Made by a program: the position numbers and the translations under genes | From: Hymenobacter cellulosivorans | Lineage (GTDB): Bacteria > Bacteroidota > Bacteroidia > Cytophagales > Hymenobacteraceae | Reading direction: 5' to 3' | Assembly: GCF_022919135.1 (NCBI RefSeq) | Contig: NZ_CP095049.1 | Location: 1-64,000, forward strand | Length of the DNA stretch: 64,000 bases | Notes under the pieces: generated by a model | What the model was told of the DNA's origin: nothing | What the model saw: only the letters and a program-made list of their open reading frames with translations | Database searches by the model: none | Shown here: piece by piece, positions 24,124 through 32,991 of the stretch | How the letters are laid out: every line of letters begins with the position of its first letter | How positions within the stretch are numbered: position 1 is the stretch's first letter

Positions 24124-24927
24124 ATGCCTGCCTCTCCCATTCTGCTGCCCTTCGACCCTGGTCTGCGCGTGCTCGTCGCCGACGATAATGAGCTCAACCA
24201 GCTCGTAGTATGTCGGGCCCTGGAAGAATGGAACGTTGTAGCTACGATGGTCGAGAACGGGCGGCAGGCCGTGGAAGCTGCTAGTTCCCAGCCCTTCGAC
24301 GCGGTGCTTATGGACATTCAAATGCCGGAAATGGATGGTTACGAAGCCACACGGCGGCTACGGCGGCTGCGGCATTTGCAGGAGCTTCCTATCATTGGCC
24401 TCACCGCATCTGCTTCCCCCGCCGATCAGGCTCGGGCCCTGGCCGCGGGCATGAACGAAACCCTCGCCAAGCCCTTCGAGCCTACGCTGCTGCATGCCAG
24501 TTTACTACGGCACACGGGTCGGGCCCGCCCCCTGGCCCGGCTCCAGCCCGCCACACCTGACCCCACCGATATTGGCACGATTCGACCCGGGTGGCATTTG
24601 CTGGAAGAGCTGGCCGCTGGCAACGAATCCTTTATTGCTCAGATTATAACCACCTTTCTGCAACAAACTCCCCCGCTCTACCAGCAGTTGGCCAGCACCG
24701 CCGCTCAGCCCGACCAGCAGCATCTGGCCCGGCTGGCCCACAAGCTGAAGGGTCAAATCGTGTATTTCGGCGTTCCGGCCATTGAACAGCATTTGGAGAA
24801 GCTCGAACGGCCACTTACGCCCGCCGACGCCGCTGAAGCCCCACACCTGATTGCCATGGTCGGCCACCAACTGACTGCCCTGTATCCGCACCTTGAGCTT
24901 CGGCTGCGGAATCACTCTGGCCGGTAA
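24124..24927 (+). CDS. Response regulator receiver fused to HPt domain
   Basis: 267 residues. The receiver (about 15-130) has the acidic pair VADDN, phospho-acceptor Asp in VLMDIQMPEMDGYEA, Thr in GLTASA and Lys in LAKPFEP. An HPt domain follows (about 155-260), with phospho-His in ARLAHKLKGQIVYFG. Such REC-HPt units are usually the tail of a hybrid kinase phosphorelay; here they are a separate protein with no kinase nearby. It lies 36 bases after the PorE-like gene and just before a LytTR regulator, so a shared pathway is possible. Confidence 0.87.
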   Translation: MPASPILLPFDPGLRVLVADDNELNQLVVCRALEEWNVVATMVENGRQAVEAASSQPFDAVLMDIQMPEMDGYEATRRLRRLRHLQELPIIGLTASASPADQARALAAGMNETLAKPFEPTLLHASLLRHTGRARPLARLQPATPDPTDIGTIRPGWHLLEELAAGNESFIAQIITTFLQQTPPLYQQLASTAAQPDQQHLARLAHKLKGQIVYFGVPAIEQHLEKLERPLTPADAAEAPHLIAMVGHQLTALYPHLELRLRNHSGR

Positions 24928-24964
24928 GCCGGCAAACAGCCCTTTCCTTTCTCACGTCTTCTTA

Positions 24965-24972
24965 TACCTTTG
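24965..24972 (+). promoter_or_regulatory. Candidate -7 element for the LytTR regulator
   Basis: TACCTTTG matches TAnnTTTG exactly and sits five bases before the ATG at 24978. Such a short gap would give a nearly leaderless message; no TTG box is clear. Confidence 0.4.
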
Positions 24973-24977
24973 GCGTT

Positions 24978-25709
24978 ATGCCAACACCCTCCTCCCCCCT
25001 ACGTTGCCTTGTTGTAGATGACGATCCGCTATCCGTTCAAATCGTTATTAACTGTATCAACAACACGCCCTTTCTAACGGCCATCGGGACCTACGACAGC
25101 GCCATGGCGGCCGCGGAGGTGCTGCGCACTGAGCCCGTCGACCTGCTTTTCCTGGATGTAGAAATGCCGCTGATGTCGGGCATCGACCTGCTCAACACGC
25201 TTCAGAACCCGCCCCTGGTCATTCTCATTACCAGCAGCAAGCACTACGCCGTAGAAGCCTTCGAGCACGATGTAGTCGACTATCTGGTGAAACCTATCAG
25301 CTACGGACGATTCCTGAAAGCAGCTCAAAAGGCTCTGGAACTCTCCGAAGCCAGCCTTACGGCCACGCCAAGCGGCACTCTGGCTCCCAGCACCGACCCG
25401 GACTTCACCTTTGTCAAAGTTGATACGAAGCTGGTCAAGGTGCTTTTCGACGACGTGAGCTACGTCGAGGCTCTGGGCGACTACGTCCATATCGTCATGC
25501 CGCACAGCAAGCTAATCGTGTACAGCACGATGAAAGCCGTAGAAGAAAAATTTCCTTCTTCTATTTTCGTTCGGGCCCACCGTTCCTTCATTGTCAACCT
25601 AAAGCGCGTTCAGGCTATTGAGGACAACACAATTACCATCGAGAATAAGCAAATTCCCATTGGGCAAACCTACTTGCGTGAAGTGCTCCAACGGCTCAAT
25701 AAGTTTTAG
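24978..25709 (+). CDS. LytTR family response regulator
   Basis: 243 residues. Receiver domain (about 8-120): VVDDDP, phospho-acceptor in LLFLDVEMPLMSGIDLL, ITSSK and LVKPI. LytTR DNA-binding domain (about 145-243): FVKVDTKLVKVLFDDVSYVEALGDYVHIV, FVRAHRSFIVNLKRVQAIEDNTI, IPIGQTYLREVLQRL. LytTR regulators bind direct repeats upstream of target genes; in Bacteroidota some control envelope or type IX secretion functions. The cognate kinase (usually a LytS/YpdA-type) is not in this window. Confidence 0.92.
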   Translation: MPTPSSPLRCLVVDDDPLSVQIVINCINNTPFLTAIGTYDSAMAAAEVLRTEPVDLLFLDVEMPLMSGIDLLNTLQNPPLVILITSSKHYAVEAFEHDVVDYLVKPISYGRFLKAAQKALELSEASLTATPSGTLAPSTDPDFTFVKVDTKLVKVLFDDVSYVEALGDYVHIVMPHSKLIVYSTMKAVEEKFPSSIFVRAHRSFIVNLKRVQAIEDNTITIENKQIPIGQTYLREVLQRLNKF

Positions 25710-28108: not shown

Positions 28109-28480
28109 GGGTTAAGTAGGGCTACAGCGGCGGTATACGGCTTTGCAAGATGGAAAAAAGCTCATAAGCCTTGTCACAACTATCCAAATTACTTCCTTTA
28201 TTGTTAGGAATAACCTTCTGCACCTTTGTAATTGGCTAGTTTTGCCCATACGAAAATCAAGAAGTCACAATTACCAAACCCCAAGGGCCATAATTGGCTT
28301 CATTAGCCACTTAATTTCCTAAGTGGATGCTATATAACGCCAATAAATCAACTTAAACCCAATTTTTTAATTTTAACCTTCAAGTCACTTTTACACAATA
28401 TCTTTCCTTTCCGTCAGCCCGGTTGTGCAGCAAATTTGTGTCAGTCAAACTCCTGAACGACTCAACCTCATAAAAGCGCC
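28109..28480. other. Divergent AT-rich regulatory region with repeated GTCACAA motif
   Basis: 372 bases between the TPR gene and the peptide gene, clearly more AT-rich than the flanks. GTCACAA occurs at 28173-28179 (within TTGTCACAA, a palindrome around a central C) and 28264-28270, and just inside the TPR gene at 28074-28080. TATCTTTC at 28399-28406 is 7 of 8 to the -7 consensus and could start the peptide message. No gene is seen on either strand. Confidence 0.5.
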
Positions 28481-28645
28481 ATGTTAGAACTTATCGCCAT
28501 CGCCCTGCTTCAACTCGCCAGCTTTACTACTTCTTCGGAGGTTAAGACGGATTCAAACGTCCAGAGCGCGACTTCTACTACTGTTACTCCGACTCCTGCC
28601 GAGGCTGGCCAAGGTGGCGGCGGCTGGGGTGGCGGAGTTAACTAA
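28481..28645 (+). CDS. 54-residue peptide with Gly/Trp-rich C-terminus
   Basis: A short gene (ATG at 28481, TAA at 28643-28645). The N-terminus is hydrophobic (LELIAIALLQLASF) but has no basic residues before it, so it is a weak match to a signal peptide. A Ser/Thr/Val-rich middle leads to the C-terminal GQGGGGWGGGVN. It has its own AT-rich upstream region and is followed within 82 bases, with no terminator, by a peptide-type ABC importer, so they may share a message. It could be a secreted peptide or pheromone precursor, a modified peptide precursor, or a leader peptide. I do not recognise a family. Whether it is translated is not shown. Confidence 0.6.
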   Translation: MLELIAIALLQLASFTTSSEVKTDSNVQSATSTTVTPTPAEAGQGGGGWGGGVN

Positions 28646-28727
28646 CCCTGTTTGCCCATCTGGCGCTCTGCTTCCTGTCGAATGTTAGCTAACTTGCCCG
28701 GACCTACGTCCGAGCACTGACCTCTTC

Positions 28728-30467
28728 ATGAAGCATCTTTTGTTTGGTTTTCTGGTCGTGGTGAGCGGCGCTTTTAGCGCCTGCTCTACCCACCAGGAAG
28801 ATTCCACTCCTGCGGTACGAATCCGTTGGGAGCGGGACCCGGAAAACCTCGACCCACTTGTTCTTCCCAATGAGAATTCCCTGGAGGCAGCAAACATGCT
28901 GTATTCCAGTCTACTGGTAGTAGACCCAAGCCGCCAGCAATTCACTCCTTGTCTGGCTGAGGCGCTCCCCAAGGTTGAGCACCAAGACTCCCTAACGCTA
29001 CTTACTTACCGCATTCGTCCCGAGGCGGTATGGGATAATGGACAGCCCGTTTTAGCCCGGGATGTAGCGTTTACGCTCAAAGTAATGAACTGCCCGGGTT
29101 TGCCGATTGAATCCAATCAGGCGCAATGGGGGTTCATCCGCGACATTCGAATCGACCCTGCTGATCCCCGTCGGTTTACCCTTATTTGTGCGGGCCATTC
29201 GCCCGAGTACCAGTGGTCTTCCGGCGACTACATCATTCTGCCGGAATATCCTCTGGACCCTCAGGGCCAGCTTCGCCCCGTTTCATTGGCTGCCCTGCGC
29301 GCCGATACGGCGGCCGATCAGCACAATCCCGTTGTAGGAGCCTTTGTACGCCGTTATAAGCAAGCCCAGCTAGACCACCATCCGGAACGGCTGCCAGGCA
29401 GCGGAGCCTACACCCTGGCGCAGTGGGAACCTGGCCGCTTTCTAACGTTTAAGCGCAAAACCCGGTGGTGGGCTGATACCCTTCACTCCGATTTATTGCC
29501 TTTACAGGCACATCCAACCCAGCTCGACTACCAGATTATCCCTGATGAAGCAACGGCTTTGCTGGCCTTGCGCCGCGGGGATATAGACGTGTTTCCGATG
29601 ATGCCAGCCAAGGAGTTTCAGCGGCTACAGCAGGCTCCCGATAATAAGGCCAACCTACAGTTTCTGACGGCCGACTCGTATAAGATGATAACCGCCTGCT
29701 TCAATACGCGGCAGCCATTGCTACAAGACCGGTTTACCCGTCAGGCCCTGACTCATTTATTCGATATTCCAGCTCTAATTAAAGCTACTCAATTGGGAAT
29801 GGCTTATCCCAGCGTTGGGCTGATAAATCCCCAGATGAAAGGAATTTATAATGACAGCCTATCCCTGCCTACCTTTTCACCCCAGACTGCTGCTCTGCTG
29901 CTACGTAAAGCGGGCTGGCAACGCCAGCCAACGGGTGACTGGACGCGGCCAGGACCAAATGGCACACCCCAACGGCTGGCTCTCACGCTGAGCTACCGCA
30001 CTGGCGACCCTGCTTTCGAAACCATAGCGTTGCAGCTCCGGGCCGCCGCGGCCAAGGTGGGAATTCCGATTCAGTCGCAACCTCTGGAAGCGTCTTTGTT
30101 TTGGGACAAGCTCCGGTCTGGCTCCGTGGACTTATACCTGTTTACTATCACCGGCAACCCTTTCGTATACAACTTTGCCCCGATCCTGCATTCAAAGAGT
30201 ATAGGAGCCGGCAACTACACGGGCTTTGGCACCGCCGCCAGCGACCAGCTTATTGAAGACATTGCGGGCGAAGCAGATGAAGCTCGTCAGGCGTTGCTCC
30301 TGCGGCGTTTTCAACGTCTGCTCCATGAAGAGAAGCCGCTCACCGTGCTATTCTTTCTTCGCTCCCGGCTAGCGGCTTCCCAGCGGCTTACCAATTTGCA
30401 GGTAACGGGGCTGCGGCCAGGCTACACGGCTACCGCCATCAAGGTGGCACCTGGGGGCGCCAAGTAA
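28728..30467 (+). CDS. ABC transporter substrate-binding lipoprotein (SBP family 5)
   Basis: 579 residues. A lipoprotein signal (MKHLLFGFLVVVSGAFSAC, lipobox FSAC) is followed by an extracytoplasmic solute-binding domain of the peptide/nickel family: RIRWERDPENLDPLVLPNENSLEAANMLYSSLL, YRIRPEAVWDNGQPVLARDVAFTLKVM, GSGAYTLAQWEPGRFLTFKRK, LLALRRGDIDVFPM, and FTRQALTHLFDIPALIKATQLGMAYPSVG. The family binds oligopeptides, nickel or other small solutes. Two permeases follow directly, spaced by 3 bases and then overlapping, so this is one operon. Confidence 0.9.
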   Translation: MKHLLFGFLVVVSGAFSACSTHQEDSTPAVRIRWERDPENLDPLVLPNENSLEAANMLYSSLLVVDPSRQQFTPCLAEALPKVEHQDSLTLLTYRIRPEAVWDNGQPVLARDVAFTLKVMNCPGLPIESNQAQWGFIRDIRIDPADPRRFTLICAGHSPEYQWSSGDYIILPEYPLDPQGQLRPVSLAALRADTAADQHNPVVGAFVRRYKQAQLDHHPERLPGSGAYTLAQWEPGRFLTFKRKTRWWADTLHSDLLPLQAHPTQLDYQIIPDEATALLALRRGDIDVFPMMPAKEFQRLQQAPDNKANLQFLTADSYKMITACFNTRQPLLQDRFTRQALTHLFDIPALIKATQLGMAYPSVGLINPQMKGIYNDSLSLPTFSPQTAALLLRKAGWQRQPTGDWTRPGPNGTPQRLALTLSYRTGDPAFETIALQLRAAAAKVGIPIQSQPLEASLFWDKLRSGSVDLYLFTITGNPFVYNFAPILHSKSIGAGNYTGFGTAASDQLIEDIAGEADEARQALLLRRFQRLLHEEKPLTVLFFLRSRLAASQRLTNLQVTGLRPGYTATAIKVAPGGAK

Positions 30468-30470
30468 ACG

Positions 30471-31532
30471 ATGGGGCGTTTTTTGTTTTTCCGCCTCGTC
30501 CGCACCCTGCCCGCCGCCTGGGGAATTCTTTCCGTTATCTTTTTACTAAGCCGGCTGTTGGCCAGCAACCAGTTACGCCTACCTGAACTACAAACCAGCC
30601 TGAGTGGGCACACCGCTACGGCGGCTCAGCTTAGGGCAGCAGAGTTTCGTTTGCAGCAACGCTTGGGACTGGATTTACCCCTATTTTACCTTACTCCTAC
30701 TCCGGAATCAGACCAGCTACTGACAGCTCGCTGGCAGTGGAACGGCTTGCACAACCAGTACCATGTTTGGCTGTGCAGGCTGCTACAAGGAGACCTTGGG
30801 CAGTCTTTTCGGGACGCCCAGCCCGTAGCTAGCCTGTTGGGCCGGGCGCTGGTTTCTACACTGGGCCTGACGATTGGCGCATTTTTACTCACGATTGGTA
30901 CCGCCTATGGCTTGACCGTAGGCTTGAGCCGAGCTCACCAGTGGCGCTCGGCTGTGTTGGCAGGCTTGCATCTGCTACAGGGCCTGCCGCTGTTTGTGGT
31001 AGCAGTGCTGCTATTGCTGCTGTTTGCTAACCCCGATACGCTGGACTGGTTTCCTGCCTACGGACTGGCCCGGCTGCAAGACACCGAGAGCTGGGCAACT
31101 CAACTAGTAATGCATACCTATTATCTGGCGCTGCCTTGGCTGAGCTTAGTTTTAGTCAGTTTGCCGGCGTTGGTAGTGCACCTCGATACTTCCCTGCAGC
31201 ACGAGCTACGGCAGTACTACATCATGACGGCCCGGGCCAAGGGACTGGCGAATGGACACGTTTTTCGCCGGCATGCGCTACGCAATGCATTGCTGCCAGC
31301 CATCACGCAGCTGACGGACCTTTTGCCAGCATTGGTAGCCGGGGCGGTAGTCGTGGAGCTAATCTTTGCCCTGCCCGGCATGGGTCGCACCCTGGCCGAA
31401 GCTGCCGCCGCCCGCGACTTTCCCGTCCTGCTAGGTGGCATCCTACTGGTAGCGCTAGTCCGTCTGCTTAGTCAGATTTTGGCGGATTGGTTGTATTACC
31501 TAGCTGATCCACGAATTCGGCTGGAGGCGTGA
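30471..31532 (+). CDS. ABC transporter permease, DppB/OppB type
   Basis: 353 residues with about six membrane segments starting with FLFFRLVRTLPAAWGILSVIFLLSRLL, the usual DppB-type N-terminal helix. A periplasmic stretch of about 100 residues precedes the transport domain (FLLTIGTAYGLTVGLSRA). The ATPase-contact EAA loop is visible: YYIMTARAKGLANGHVFRRHALRNALLPAI. Its presence implies that an ATPase is needed; none is encoded nearby. Three bases separate it from the binding protein gene. Confidence 0.9.
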   Translation: MGRFLFFRLVRTLPAAWGILSVIFLLSRLLASNQLRLPELQTSLSGHTATAAQLRAAEFRLQQRLGLDLPLFYLTPTPESDQLLTARWQWNGLHNQYHVWLCRLLQGDLGQSFRDAQPVASLLGRALVSTLGLTIGAFLLTIGTAYGLTVGLSRAHQWRSAVLAGLHLLQGLPLFVVAVLLLLLFANPDTLDWFPAYGLARLQDTESWATQLVMHTYYLALPWLSLVLVSLPALVVHLDTSLQHELRQYYIMTARAKGLANGHVFRRHALRNALLPAITQLTDLLPALVAGAVVVELIFALPGMGRTLAEAAAARDFPVLLGGILLVALVRLLSQILADWLYYLADPRIRLEA

Positions 31533-32530
31533 GGCAGCAGGCACCGTGGAATTCCGGGAGTTGGTGGCTGGCTGGCGGATGGCTGTTACTGGTGTTGACG
31601 GCCGCCGGCAGCACCTGGGTATTGCCCAGTTCATTTGCCCCCGATATTCCCGATCTGCAGGCTATAGCCCAAGCTCCTGGACAGGCCCCCCACTGGCTTG
31701 GCACCGATCCCCAAGGCCGGGATGTACTAGCCGGACTTATTTATGGGGCCCGAACCGCGTGCTTGGTCAGCATACCAGCCGCCCTGGCCGCCACCTTCCT
31801 AGGCACTCTACTAGGCAGCTTGGCGGGCTACTGGGGCAATCAGCGGCTGATCATATCTGCGGCTCACGCAATACTCGTGGCCGGTGCTGGTCTGTTCCTA
31901 CTATTTTTTCGAACGTCGGCGGCTGGTCTCGTACTCGTGCTAGGAGGCTGTGCGGGGGCTGTTTTCGTCACCGGAAGGTTCCTGACATCTTCAGTCAGGT
32001 CATTTCCGCGCTTGCAGCTTCCTCTGGACGCAGTCGTTTTACTGCTGATTGCGCTGCTCACTTCGGTGCCGCGACTGGTTCTGGTACTGGCCATTGCTGC
32101 CGTACGGTCGTCTTCCGTATGGTCGCTGCTGGCTATTCTGTCGCTCACGTACTGGCCAGTTTCGGCCCAACTCGTGCGGGCCGAGATGCTGCGCGTTCGG
32201 CAATTGTCCTTTATTGAAGCGGCCCGGGCGCTGGGAATACCGCACTGGCAGGTTATCGGCCGGCACGCCTTACCCGTACTCGGCAAAACCATTGCTGCGC
32301 TCCTGCCACTTAGCGTAGCCACTCTCATCGGCGTTGAAACCACTTTGTCCTTTCTAGGGGTAGGCCTGCCCCCGGAAATAGCTAGTTGGGGCCGGTTGCT
32401 CGCCACGGCCCGGCAGGATTTCACTGCTTGGTGGCTTATCGTATTTCCCGCCTCTACTATTTTACTGACCATCCTAGCCCTACGCAGGCTTATTTTTCTT
32501 CGGTCCAAAAGCCGATTCAACGCTAATTAA
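31529..32530 (+). CDS. ABC transporter permease, DppC/OppC type
   Basis: 333 residues, second permease of the importer. The GTG start at 31529 overlaps the stop of the first permease (GTGA), a sign of translational coupling. Visible features: an N-terminal helix (WWLAGGWLLLVLTAAGSTWVL), HWLGTDPQGRDVLAGLIYGARTACLVSI (the DppC hallmark), the EAA loop SFIEAARALGIPHWQVIGRHALPVL, and VETTLSFLGVGLPPEIASWG near the end. Last gene of the operon; no OppD/OppF follows. Confidence 0.9.
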   Translation: MRQQAPWNSGSWWLAGGWLLLVLTAAGSTWVLPSSFAPDIPDLQAIAQAPGQAPHWLGTDPQGRDVLAGLIYGARTACLVSIPAALAATFLGTLLGSLAGYWGNQRLIISAAHAILVAGAGLFLLFFRTSAAGLVLVLGGCAGAVFVTGRFLTSSVRSFPRLQLPLDAVVLLLIALLTSVPRLVLVLAIAAVRSSSVWSLLAILSLTYWPVSAQLVRAEMLRVRQLSFIEAARALGIPHWQVIGRHALPVLGKTIAALLPLSVATLIGVETTLSFLGVGLPPEIASWGRLLATARQDFTAWWLIVFPASTILLTILALRRLIFLRSKSRFNAN

Positions 32531-32922
32531 TCTGTCACAAATACCCTGCTATTTTTCACAGCAACCGCAACTATTCTGCTGGGCAAAAGCTTTGAATTAC
32601 TGTAGTGTAGACCACCTGAAAGAGCATTGCTCTAGTTGATACTGACTTTATTGGTGCCTATTTGATCTGTATTGATTCCAAAATGCGCCATTTTTCACGT
32701 GTCACAATTAGAAATAAATCATCCTTTACACCGGGGCTTTCTTGCCCTAATATTGTCATAAGAAACAGCCAGCCAAGTGAGCCAGCCGGTTTCTTCAGAC
32801 TGCTAGCAGCTCTGAATACGGAAAAGACATTGCGCCGGTGAACGGTGAAAAATAAAAGAATACGGGCTACCCGCTGCTCTGCTCGCAGCGGCAAAACCCA
32901 AAGGTTGTTGCAATAGGTGTGT
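32531..32922. other. Gap after the importer, repeated GTCACAA motif
   Basis: No gene that I can support. GTCACAA occurs at 32534-32540 and 32701-32707 in the same orientation as the copies upstream of the peptide gene. The region is AT-rich with no obvious terminator for the importer operon. Confidence 0.4.
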
Positions 32923-32955
32923 AAAAAAACCGCTGGCTTTGCCAACGGTTTTTTT
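32923..32955 (-). terminator. Rho-independent terminator for the RmlD-like gene
   Basis: A and T runs flank the stem ACCG-TGGC-TTT-GCCA-CGGT (small internal bulges), about 40 bases after the stop of the minus-strand gene. The run of seven T on both strands would allow use in either direction. Confidence 0.8.
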
Positions 32956-32991
32956 GCGTTTACGGCTGTTCCACCTTGCCGACCGACTAGC

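Follow-up and report, generated by a model that had tools for sequence, protein, structure and literature searches.

A Gly/Trp peptide gene beside a peptide importer in Hymenobacter, and its probable role as the precursor of a re-imported pheromone

The first 64,000 nucleotides of the Hymenobacter cellulosivorans contig NZ_CP095049.1 (the window) raise the question of what a very short gene is doing directly upstream of the genes for a peptide importer. An earlier note on this DNA had described the gene as unannotated, with a Gly/Trp tail, and had proposed either a peptide circuit similar to the RRNPP systems of Bacillota or the precursor of a modified peptide. The gene is exactly as described there: the open reading frame (ORF) on the forward strand starts with ATG, encodes 54 residues with the C-terminus GQGGGGWGGGVN, and is followed by an SBP_bac_5 lipoprotein, i.e., a family-5 solute-binding protein (SBP), and two permeases. 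The divergent neighbor, which the earlier note had passed over, encodes a tetratricopeptide repeat (TPR)-like protein. TPR-like protein, ~370 bp of conserved regulatory DNA, peptide, SBP and the two permeases make up a five-gene cassette (Table 1). We consider it probable (roughly 0.68) that the cassette forms a peptide pheromone circuit of the import type, functioning in Hymenobacteraceae as the RRNPP systems do in Bacillota. This reading draws on the linkage of the five genes, the selection acting on each peptide core, the arrangement of the repeats, the superhelix predicted for the TPR-like protein and the conserved regulatory elements.

The peptide matches no Pfam or NCBIfam family. The label ‘unannotated’ is only partly right, as close relatives have it as a ‘hypothetical protein’, the protein database containing seven relatives, all of 50–54 residues, of which the named ones are Hymenobacter entries under that label. 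Among 120 Hymenobacter genomes, the TPR protein and the SBP are both found in 112 and neither is found in 8. The SBP search itself gave a match in 116 genomes, of which 112 were strong and four (G003, G058, G087 and G114) were weak paralog matches only. Of the 204 genomes of the family, 196 were matched by a profile built from 68 TPR proteins; the eight left over coincide exactly with those Hymenobacter genomes that lack a strong SBP match. Where both proteins are present, the peptide is too: it was found in 112 of 112 genomes, 103 by script and nine by eye (G062, G016, G045, G099, G055, G024, G097, G007 and G096), including one with a divergent core (IGDDKWTGQ in G096) and one with a broken SBP (G082). 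Five assemblies break within the repeat array described below, leaving the precursor on the contig end at the TPR side (L291, L292, L294, L295 and L296). The homologous short gene and the conserved Gly/Trp tail that the earlier note had proposed to look for in relatives are thus both there, and codon substitution is that of a coding sequence, the ratio of nonsynonymous to synonymous rates (dN/dS) among ten close species being 0.11 at the N-terminus and 0.08 in the core. Because of its presence in every cassette-bearing genome and these ratios, the peptide ORF is far beyond chance. When the eight genomes without the cassette were searched with one multi-core query, no hit was better than E 0.5; this absence is a weak result, since the same query recovered the locus in only six of eight cassette-bearing controls at E≤10 and four of eight at E≤1e-3. 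The eight genomes may reflect one loss event.

The family contributes 84 further genomes outside the genus, and one locus was opened in each of 20 of these, from five genera. All 20 have the TPR protein, a short precursor, the SBP and two permeases in an identical layout, and the precursors again carry a hydrophobic N-terminus and a Gly/Trp tail (e.g., GGTGTWDDSN). Of eight flanking genes in the window, two are common to 86 of 100 genus loci, and none recurs in more than 8 of the 20 loci outside the genus; a LytTR response regulator lies nearby in 67 of 100 genus loci and 4 of 20 loci of other genera. Since flanking genes are rarely shared in other genera, the unit kept together by selection is the TPR protein, the peptide, the SBP and the permeases. 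For the same reason no modifying enzyme belongs to the conserved cassette, which leaves the modified-precursor proposal of the earlier note unsupported.

To characterize the peptide, 102 full-length precursors were compared, with duplicate loci per genome left out and L115 removed, a paralogous locus at which the hit was the TPR frame itself; L115 remains in the core set of 104 rows and 81 arrays and in the frequencies drawn from it. The precursors range from 46 to 297 residues; 22 have one Trp core and 80 have 2–20. Their N-terminus is strongly hydrophobic, with no Lys or Arg at residues 2–8 in 99 of the 102. The cores, in 1–20 copies per precursor, follow a consensus of approximately G-x-[GST]-G-W: Gly occupies W–4 in 103 of 104 rows (one row being spurious) and W–1 in 95 of 104, and the remaining positions vary by species. 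Over nine residues, core identity averages 96.6% inside one array and 53.1% between species. In 388 adjacent core pairs from 80 arrays, 44.9% synonymous difference stands against 1.3% nonsynonymous difference (dN/dS 0.019). This combination of high synonymous and low nonsynonymous divergence means that the core copies are old and that each is held to the same species-specific amino-acid sequence. In 211 pairs of constant period, the proportion of nonsynonymous differences (pN) was 0.017 for the core (W–4 to W+2) and 0.171 for the linker (W+4 to W+8) at similar synonymous divergence, so that linkers are about ten times freer than cores at nonsynonymous sites. The constraint seen in the repeats of relatives spans approximately W–5 to W+2 and likely marks the mature peptide.

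The pattern is the one expected of a precursor from which a single species-specific peptide is released in many copies, and neither a structural repeat nor an RNA function explains it well. Proteins built of Gly-rich units are common on cell surfaces and TPR proteins are often chaperones, and the ORF could accordingly encode a structural, cell-surface or chaperone-dependent repeat protein, with the TPR protein aiding its folding or export and the importer merely recycling fragments. We regard this as very unlikely: the single-copy precursors of 46–60 residues (22 of 102) retain the same place and N-terminus, and linkers vary in length and sequence while the core is kept, which points to free units under selection and not to a continuous fold. 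The place of the gene directly upstream of the importer would also suit a leader peptide that controls those genes by translation (attenuation), with no free peptide product. Such an explanation is extremely unlikely, given precursors of up to 20 cores and 297 residues, selection that acts on amino acids and not on RNA (the synonymous sites of adjacent repeats being highly diverged), and the lack of a consensus RNA fold in an alignment of 103 peptide–SBP spacers, the spacer of the window folding no better than its shuffles (z –1.3). An ordinary leader peptide, an RNA element or a chance ORF is, for practical purposes, excluded. That the gene is a peptide precursor with the short core as its product is, for its part, very probable.

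The best sequence match of the SBP in the PDB is the oligopeptide-binding protein AppA (1xoc, E 3.4e-18), with weak matches to the nickel-binding NikA and the metallophore binder CntA. The latter two, together with an Asp or His near the Trp of many cores, would fit a metal or nutrient carrier of the metallophore kind, which the importer returns loaded and for which the TPR protein serves as a local uptake regulator. We consider such a carrier highly unlikely, because the cores have no constant metal-binding residue (that of the window is QGGGGWGGG, and only Gly and Trp are nearly fixed across species) and a species-specific spelling of the repeats is not expected of a chelator. The best NCBIfam matches of the permease include, below cut-off, the microcin C importer YejB. 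This match, the many species-specific cores per precursor and the linkage to a peptide importer would likewise be consistent with a multi-copy antimicrobial or competitive peptide, the importer and TPR protein providing self-protection, clearance or regulation. This reading is unlikely: no immunity, exporter or modifying gene is kept in the cassette across genera, the partner is always a TPR protein, and core identity within species and presence in every cassette genome favor a signal, whereas an arms race would vary presence. The cassette lacks an ATPase gene; a single ORF elsewhere in the genome, at 1.2 Mb, carries two oligo_HPY domains and is likely a shared Opp/Dpp ATPase.

The superhelix predicted for the divergent TPR-like protein has its best structural alignments with Rap and NprR, which are receptors for imported pheromones. 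To assess whether the core has evolved with its proposed receptor, partial Mantel tests were applied to 87 of the 103 scripted loci, namely those refetched with long flanks in which all three proteins were found. Core distance correlated with that of the TPR protein (0.575), the SBP (0.526) and the permease (0.471). The partial correlation of core and TPR protein persisted given the permease (0.375) or the SBP (0.28; p 0.001), whereas that of the core with the SBP or the permease was lost given the TPR protein (0.066 and 0.043). The profile of 68 TPR proteins retrieved no PDB chain at E up to 1, RRNPP receptors included. The control, the peptide N-terminus, behaved similarly though less strongly (0.272 and 0.248), which weakens the coevolution signal. 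Because the N-terminus shares part of that signal, TPR distance may simply track phylogeny best. The TPR protein also has no match to a curated NCBIfam receptor. The RRNPP-like circuit of the earlier note thus gains strong computational support from the conserved gene and tail, the constrained tandem copies and the Rap/NprR-like predicted fold, but not from any sequence match of the TPR protein to the PDB.

The DNA between the TPR and peptide genes is itself conserved. In 112 of the 120 loci at which it was measured, a set that includes some genomes twice, the distance between the two starts is 340–385 nt; the other eight are mis-picked starts or paralogs. For the alignment, 98 regions were used and 22 of the 120 excluded (the eight wrong starts or paralogs and 14 refetched duplicates). 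These regions contain two copies of the composite element GTCACA-N13-TTTCCTTT-N24-TTTG, ~211 bp apart. GTCACA is present in 88 of 98 regions, at 1.7 per region against 0.08 expected from shuffles, and TTTCCTTT in 63 of 98 (0.84 observed against 0.02 expected). The offset from one to the other is 19 nt in all 47 cases with both exact, and TTTG follows 32 or 33 nt further on in 80 cases. This TTTG end resembles the Bacteroidota –7 element TANNTTTG as given in the part of PMC6847099 consulted, the TA being mostly missing here. In agreement with the earlier note, which had seen no terminator ahead of the importer genes, a scan detected nothing resembling a terminator between peptide and SBP; yet a TAACTTGC box is kept among relatives 30 nt before the SBP start, and the importer may therefore have its own promoter.

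Across the genus, a search allowing up to one mismatch gave 47 element matches in 44 of 120 genomes and none for the control; 43 lie between the TPR gene and the peptide, three after the operon and one elsewhere. In the genome of H. cellulosivorans, a search allowing up to two mismatches gave five places, and the reversed control gave one. Of the five, one is the locus itself, three lie ~90–108 nt before other ORFs and one overlaps a gene start; they are too few to name a regulon. The elements at C1:5989630-5989684 (–), C1:2997371-2997425 (+) and C1:2029459-2029513 (–), two of which precede ORFs for exported-looking proteins, mark candidate regulon members. A third composite element lies 3′ of the operon, with a scored copy in 52 of 100 genus loci. 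In relatives it often precedes a conserved small ORF located 200–450 nt past the last permease (e.g., L047, L059 and L100). This ORF of ~67–78 residues, with a conserved tail like TAVLVGGLLVG, occurs in 62 of 96 genus loci and matches nothing in Pfam or NCBIfam. In the window a weak third element is retained, and no downstream small ORF was seen. After the operon, at ~32905–32960 of the window, a conserved GGTTGTTGCAATAGGTGTGT is followed by a hairpin and a T run, as also at L037, L039 and L045. It is perhaps a small RNA or a terminator; it has no Rfam match at the gathering threshold, at which no RNA family was found in the window.

Table 1. Coordinates of the cassette and its associated elements in the window.
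Feature	Position	Strand	Basis or remark
TPR-like protein, 513 residues	26567..28108	-	Divergent; proposed to act inside the cell as receptor/regulator for the peptide
Distal composite element: GTCACA, 13 nt, (T)TTCCTTT-like, ~25 nt, TTTG	28173..28228	+	Alignment of 98 intergenic regions; fixed spacing; window score 17/18
Additional conserved GTCACA box	28264..28269	+	ATGTCACAATT conserved across the 98 aligned loci
Proximal composite element, GTCACT-N13-TTTCCTTT-N24-TTTG	28384..28438	+	Likely promoter and regulator box for the peptide gene
Peptide precursor, 54 residues	28481..28645	+	Single core copy in H. cellulosivorans
Hydrophobic N-terminus MLELIAIALLQLASFTT	28481..28531	+	Probable export/membrane segment; kept across the genus
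Core QGGGGWGGG	28610..28636	+	Probable mature peptide or its center; per-codon constraint in relatives' repeats, core positions
TAACTTGC box 5′ of the SBP gene	28690..28697	+	Kept in the alignment of 103 spacers; resembles the Bacteroidota –7 element TANNTTTG
Family-5 solute-binding lipoprotein (SBP)	28728..30467	+	SBP_bac_5 E 1.3e-44; lipobox FSAC
Permease, OppB/DppB type	30471..31532	+	BPD_transp_1 E 2.1e-26; Opp4B best NCBIfam match, below cut-off
Permease, OppC/DppC type	31529..32530	+	BPD_transp_1 E 2.4e-19; Opp4C best NCBIfam match, below cut-off
Weak third composite element, 3′ of the operon	32701..32755	+	Read from sequence; below the score cut-off of the element scan

The TPR family extends beyond the Hymenobacteraceae. 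Within the order it was found in 74 of 291 genomes, representing 24 of 115 genera, and 29 of these genomes are outside the Hymenobacteraceae; within the class it was found in 14 of 295 genomes, 11 of them outside the order. Most of the 19 distant loci opened had no peptide by our screen, so either the TPR family is more widespread than the circuit or the distant loci have peptides of another kind. Several loci depart from the usual layout: L175 has three near-identical single-core precursor genes in a row, ~377–1040 nt beyond the TPR start (+ orientation), as an alternative to tandem cores in one gene; L205, another locus of the family, has two TPR genes in tandem; and L111 and L113 have two TPR genes, the SBP facing one with no permeases found beside it and the peptide lying near the second. 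In the window, a response-regulator/Hpt gene and a LytTR response regulator lie near the TPR gene (24124–25709).

In the pheromone circuit that we infer, the ORF would be the precursor of a secreted peptide, in one copy here and in tandem copies in most relatives. Export would proceed through the hydrophobic N-terminus of the precursor, and cleavage would yield peptides of ~8–9 residues centered on G-x-[GST]-G-W. The SBP lipoprotein would capture the peptide and the two permeases would import it, powered by an ATPase encoded elsewhere; the TPR-like protein would then sense the imported peptide by binding and alter gene expression, its own locus probably being among the outputs through the GTCACA/TTTCCTTT elements. 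There is about an even chance that the circuit amounts to a pheromone language of the whole Hymenobacteraceae: a species-specific Gly/Trp octa- or nonapeptide encoded up to twenty-fold in one precursor, a dedicated adjoining importer, a Rap/NprR-shaped receptor, either of independent origin or split very early from the RRNPP receptors of Bacillota, and a regulon marked by GTCACA-N13-TTTCCTTT promoters that includes the second conserved small gene 3′ of the importer. If so, it would be the first circuit of its kind in Gram-negative bacteria. Our literature search, which left most subscription journals and preprints outside its reach, found no description of such a system, including for Hymenobacter with RRNPP. 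Bacillota are known to sense re-imported peptides in the cytoplasm, and it is there that the surveys checked, as far as the parts consulted go, had looked; a signal–importer–receptor cassette across a family of Bacteroidota would show this mode of communication in Gram-negative bacteria. It would offer more than 100 natural signal/receptor pairs with the signal spelled in the genome, so that cheap synthetic peptides and harmless strains from the environment would allow a direct test of specificity and coevolution. The repeat arrays are an unusually clean case of peptide identity being kept by selection while the DNA diverges.

Compared to the RRNPP/RRNPPA systems of Bacillota (Rap-Phr, NprR-NprX), the cassette shares a small precursor with a hydrophobic N-terminus beside a TPR receptor-like gene, a short peptide for which export, cleavage and return through an Opp/Dpp-type importer are presumed, and a proposed receptor with a predicted TPR-like superhelical domain that aligns best to Rap and NprR. 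It differs in belonging to Gram-negative Bacteroidota (Hymenobacter and relatives), in having importer genes inside the conserved cassette, in Gly/Trp cores repeated up to 20 times, and in its proposed receptor, which has no detectable sequence similarity to the known ones and for which no N-terminal helix-turn-helix or three-helix bundle was identified. In the portions consulted, one survey is confined to complete Firmicutes genomes (PMC10075063), and two further papers (PMC9765709 and PMC12700828) treat Firmicutes or Gram-positives, with Bacteroidetes and Gram-negatives unmentioned by the terms tried. According to the part of PMC11343458 consulted, tandemly duplicated Phr propeptides, with identical or near-identical repeats in some Rap-Phr families, carry more than one pheromone copy per precursor and are cut by protease. 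Here, 80 of the 102 precursors have 2–20 Trp cores, which are held identical by strong purifying selection. Multi-core ribosomally synthesized and post-translationally modified peptides, such as the tricore microviridin precursors (PMC5934393, as far as consulted), likewise place several cores in one precursor. They differ in that no modifying enzyme is part of the conserved cassette here. The yeast alpha-factor precursor is secreted with many identical copies of the mating peptide, and many copies of one peptide per precursor are the feature that it shares with the arrays described here; the yeast peptide acts on a surface receptor, whereas its bacterial counterpart would be re-imported and read by the proposed cytoplasmic receptor.
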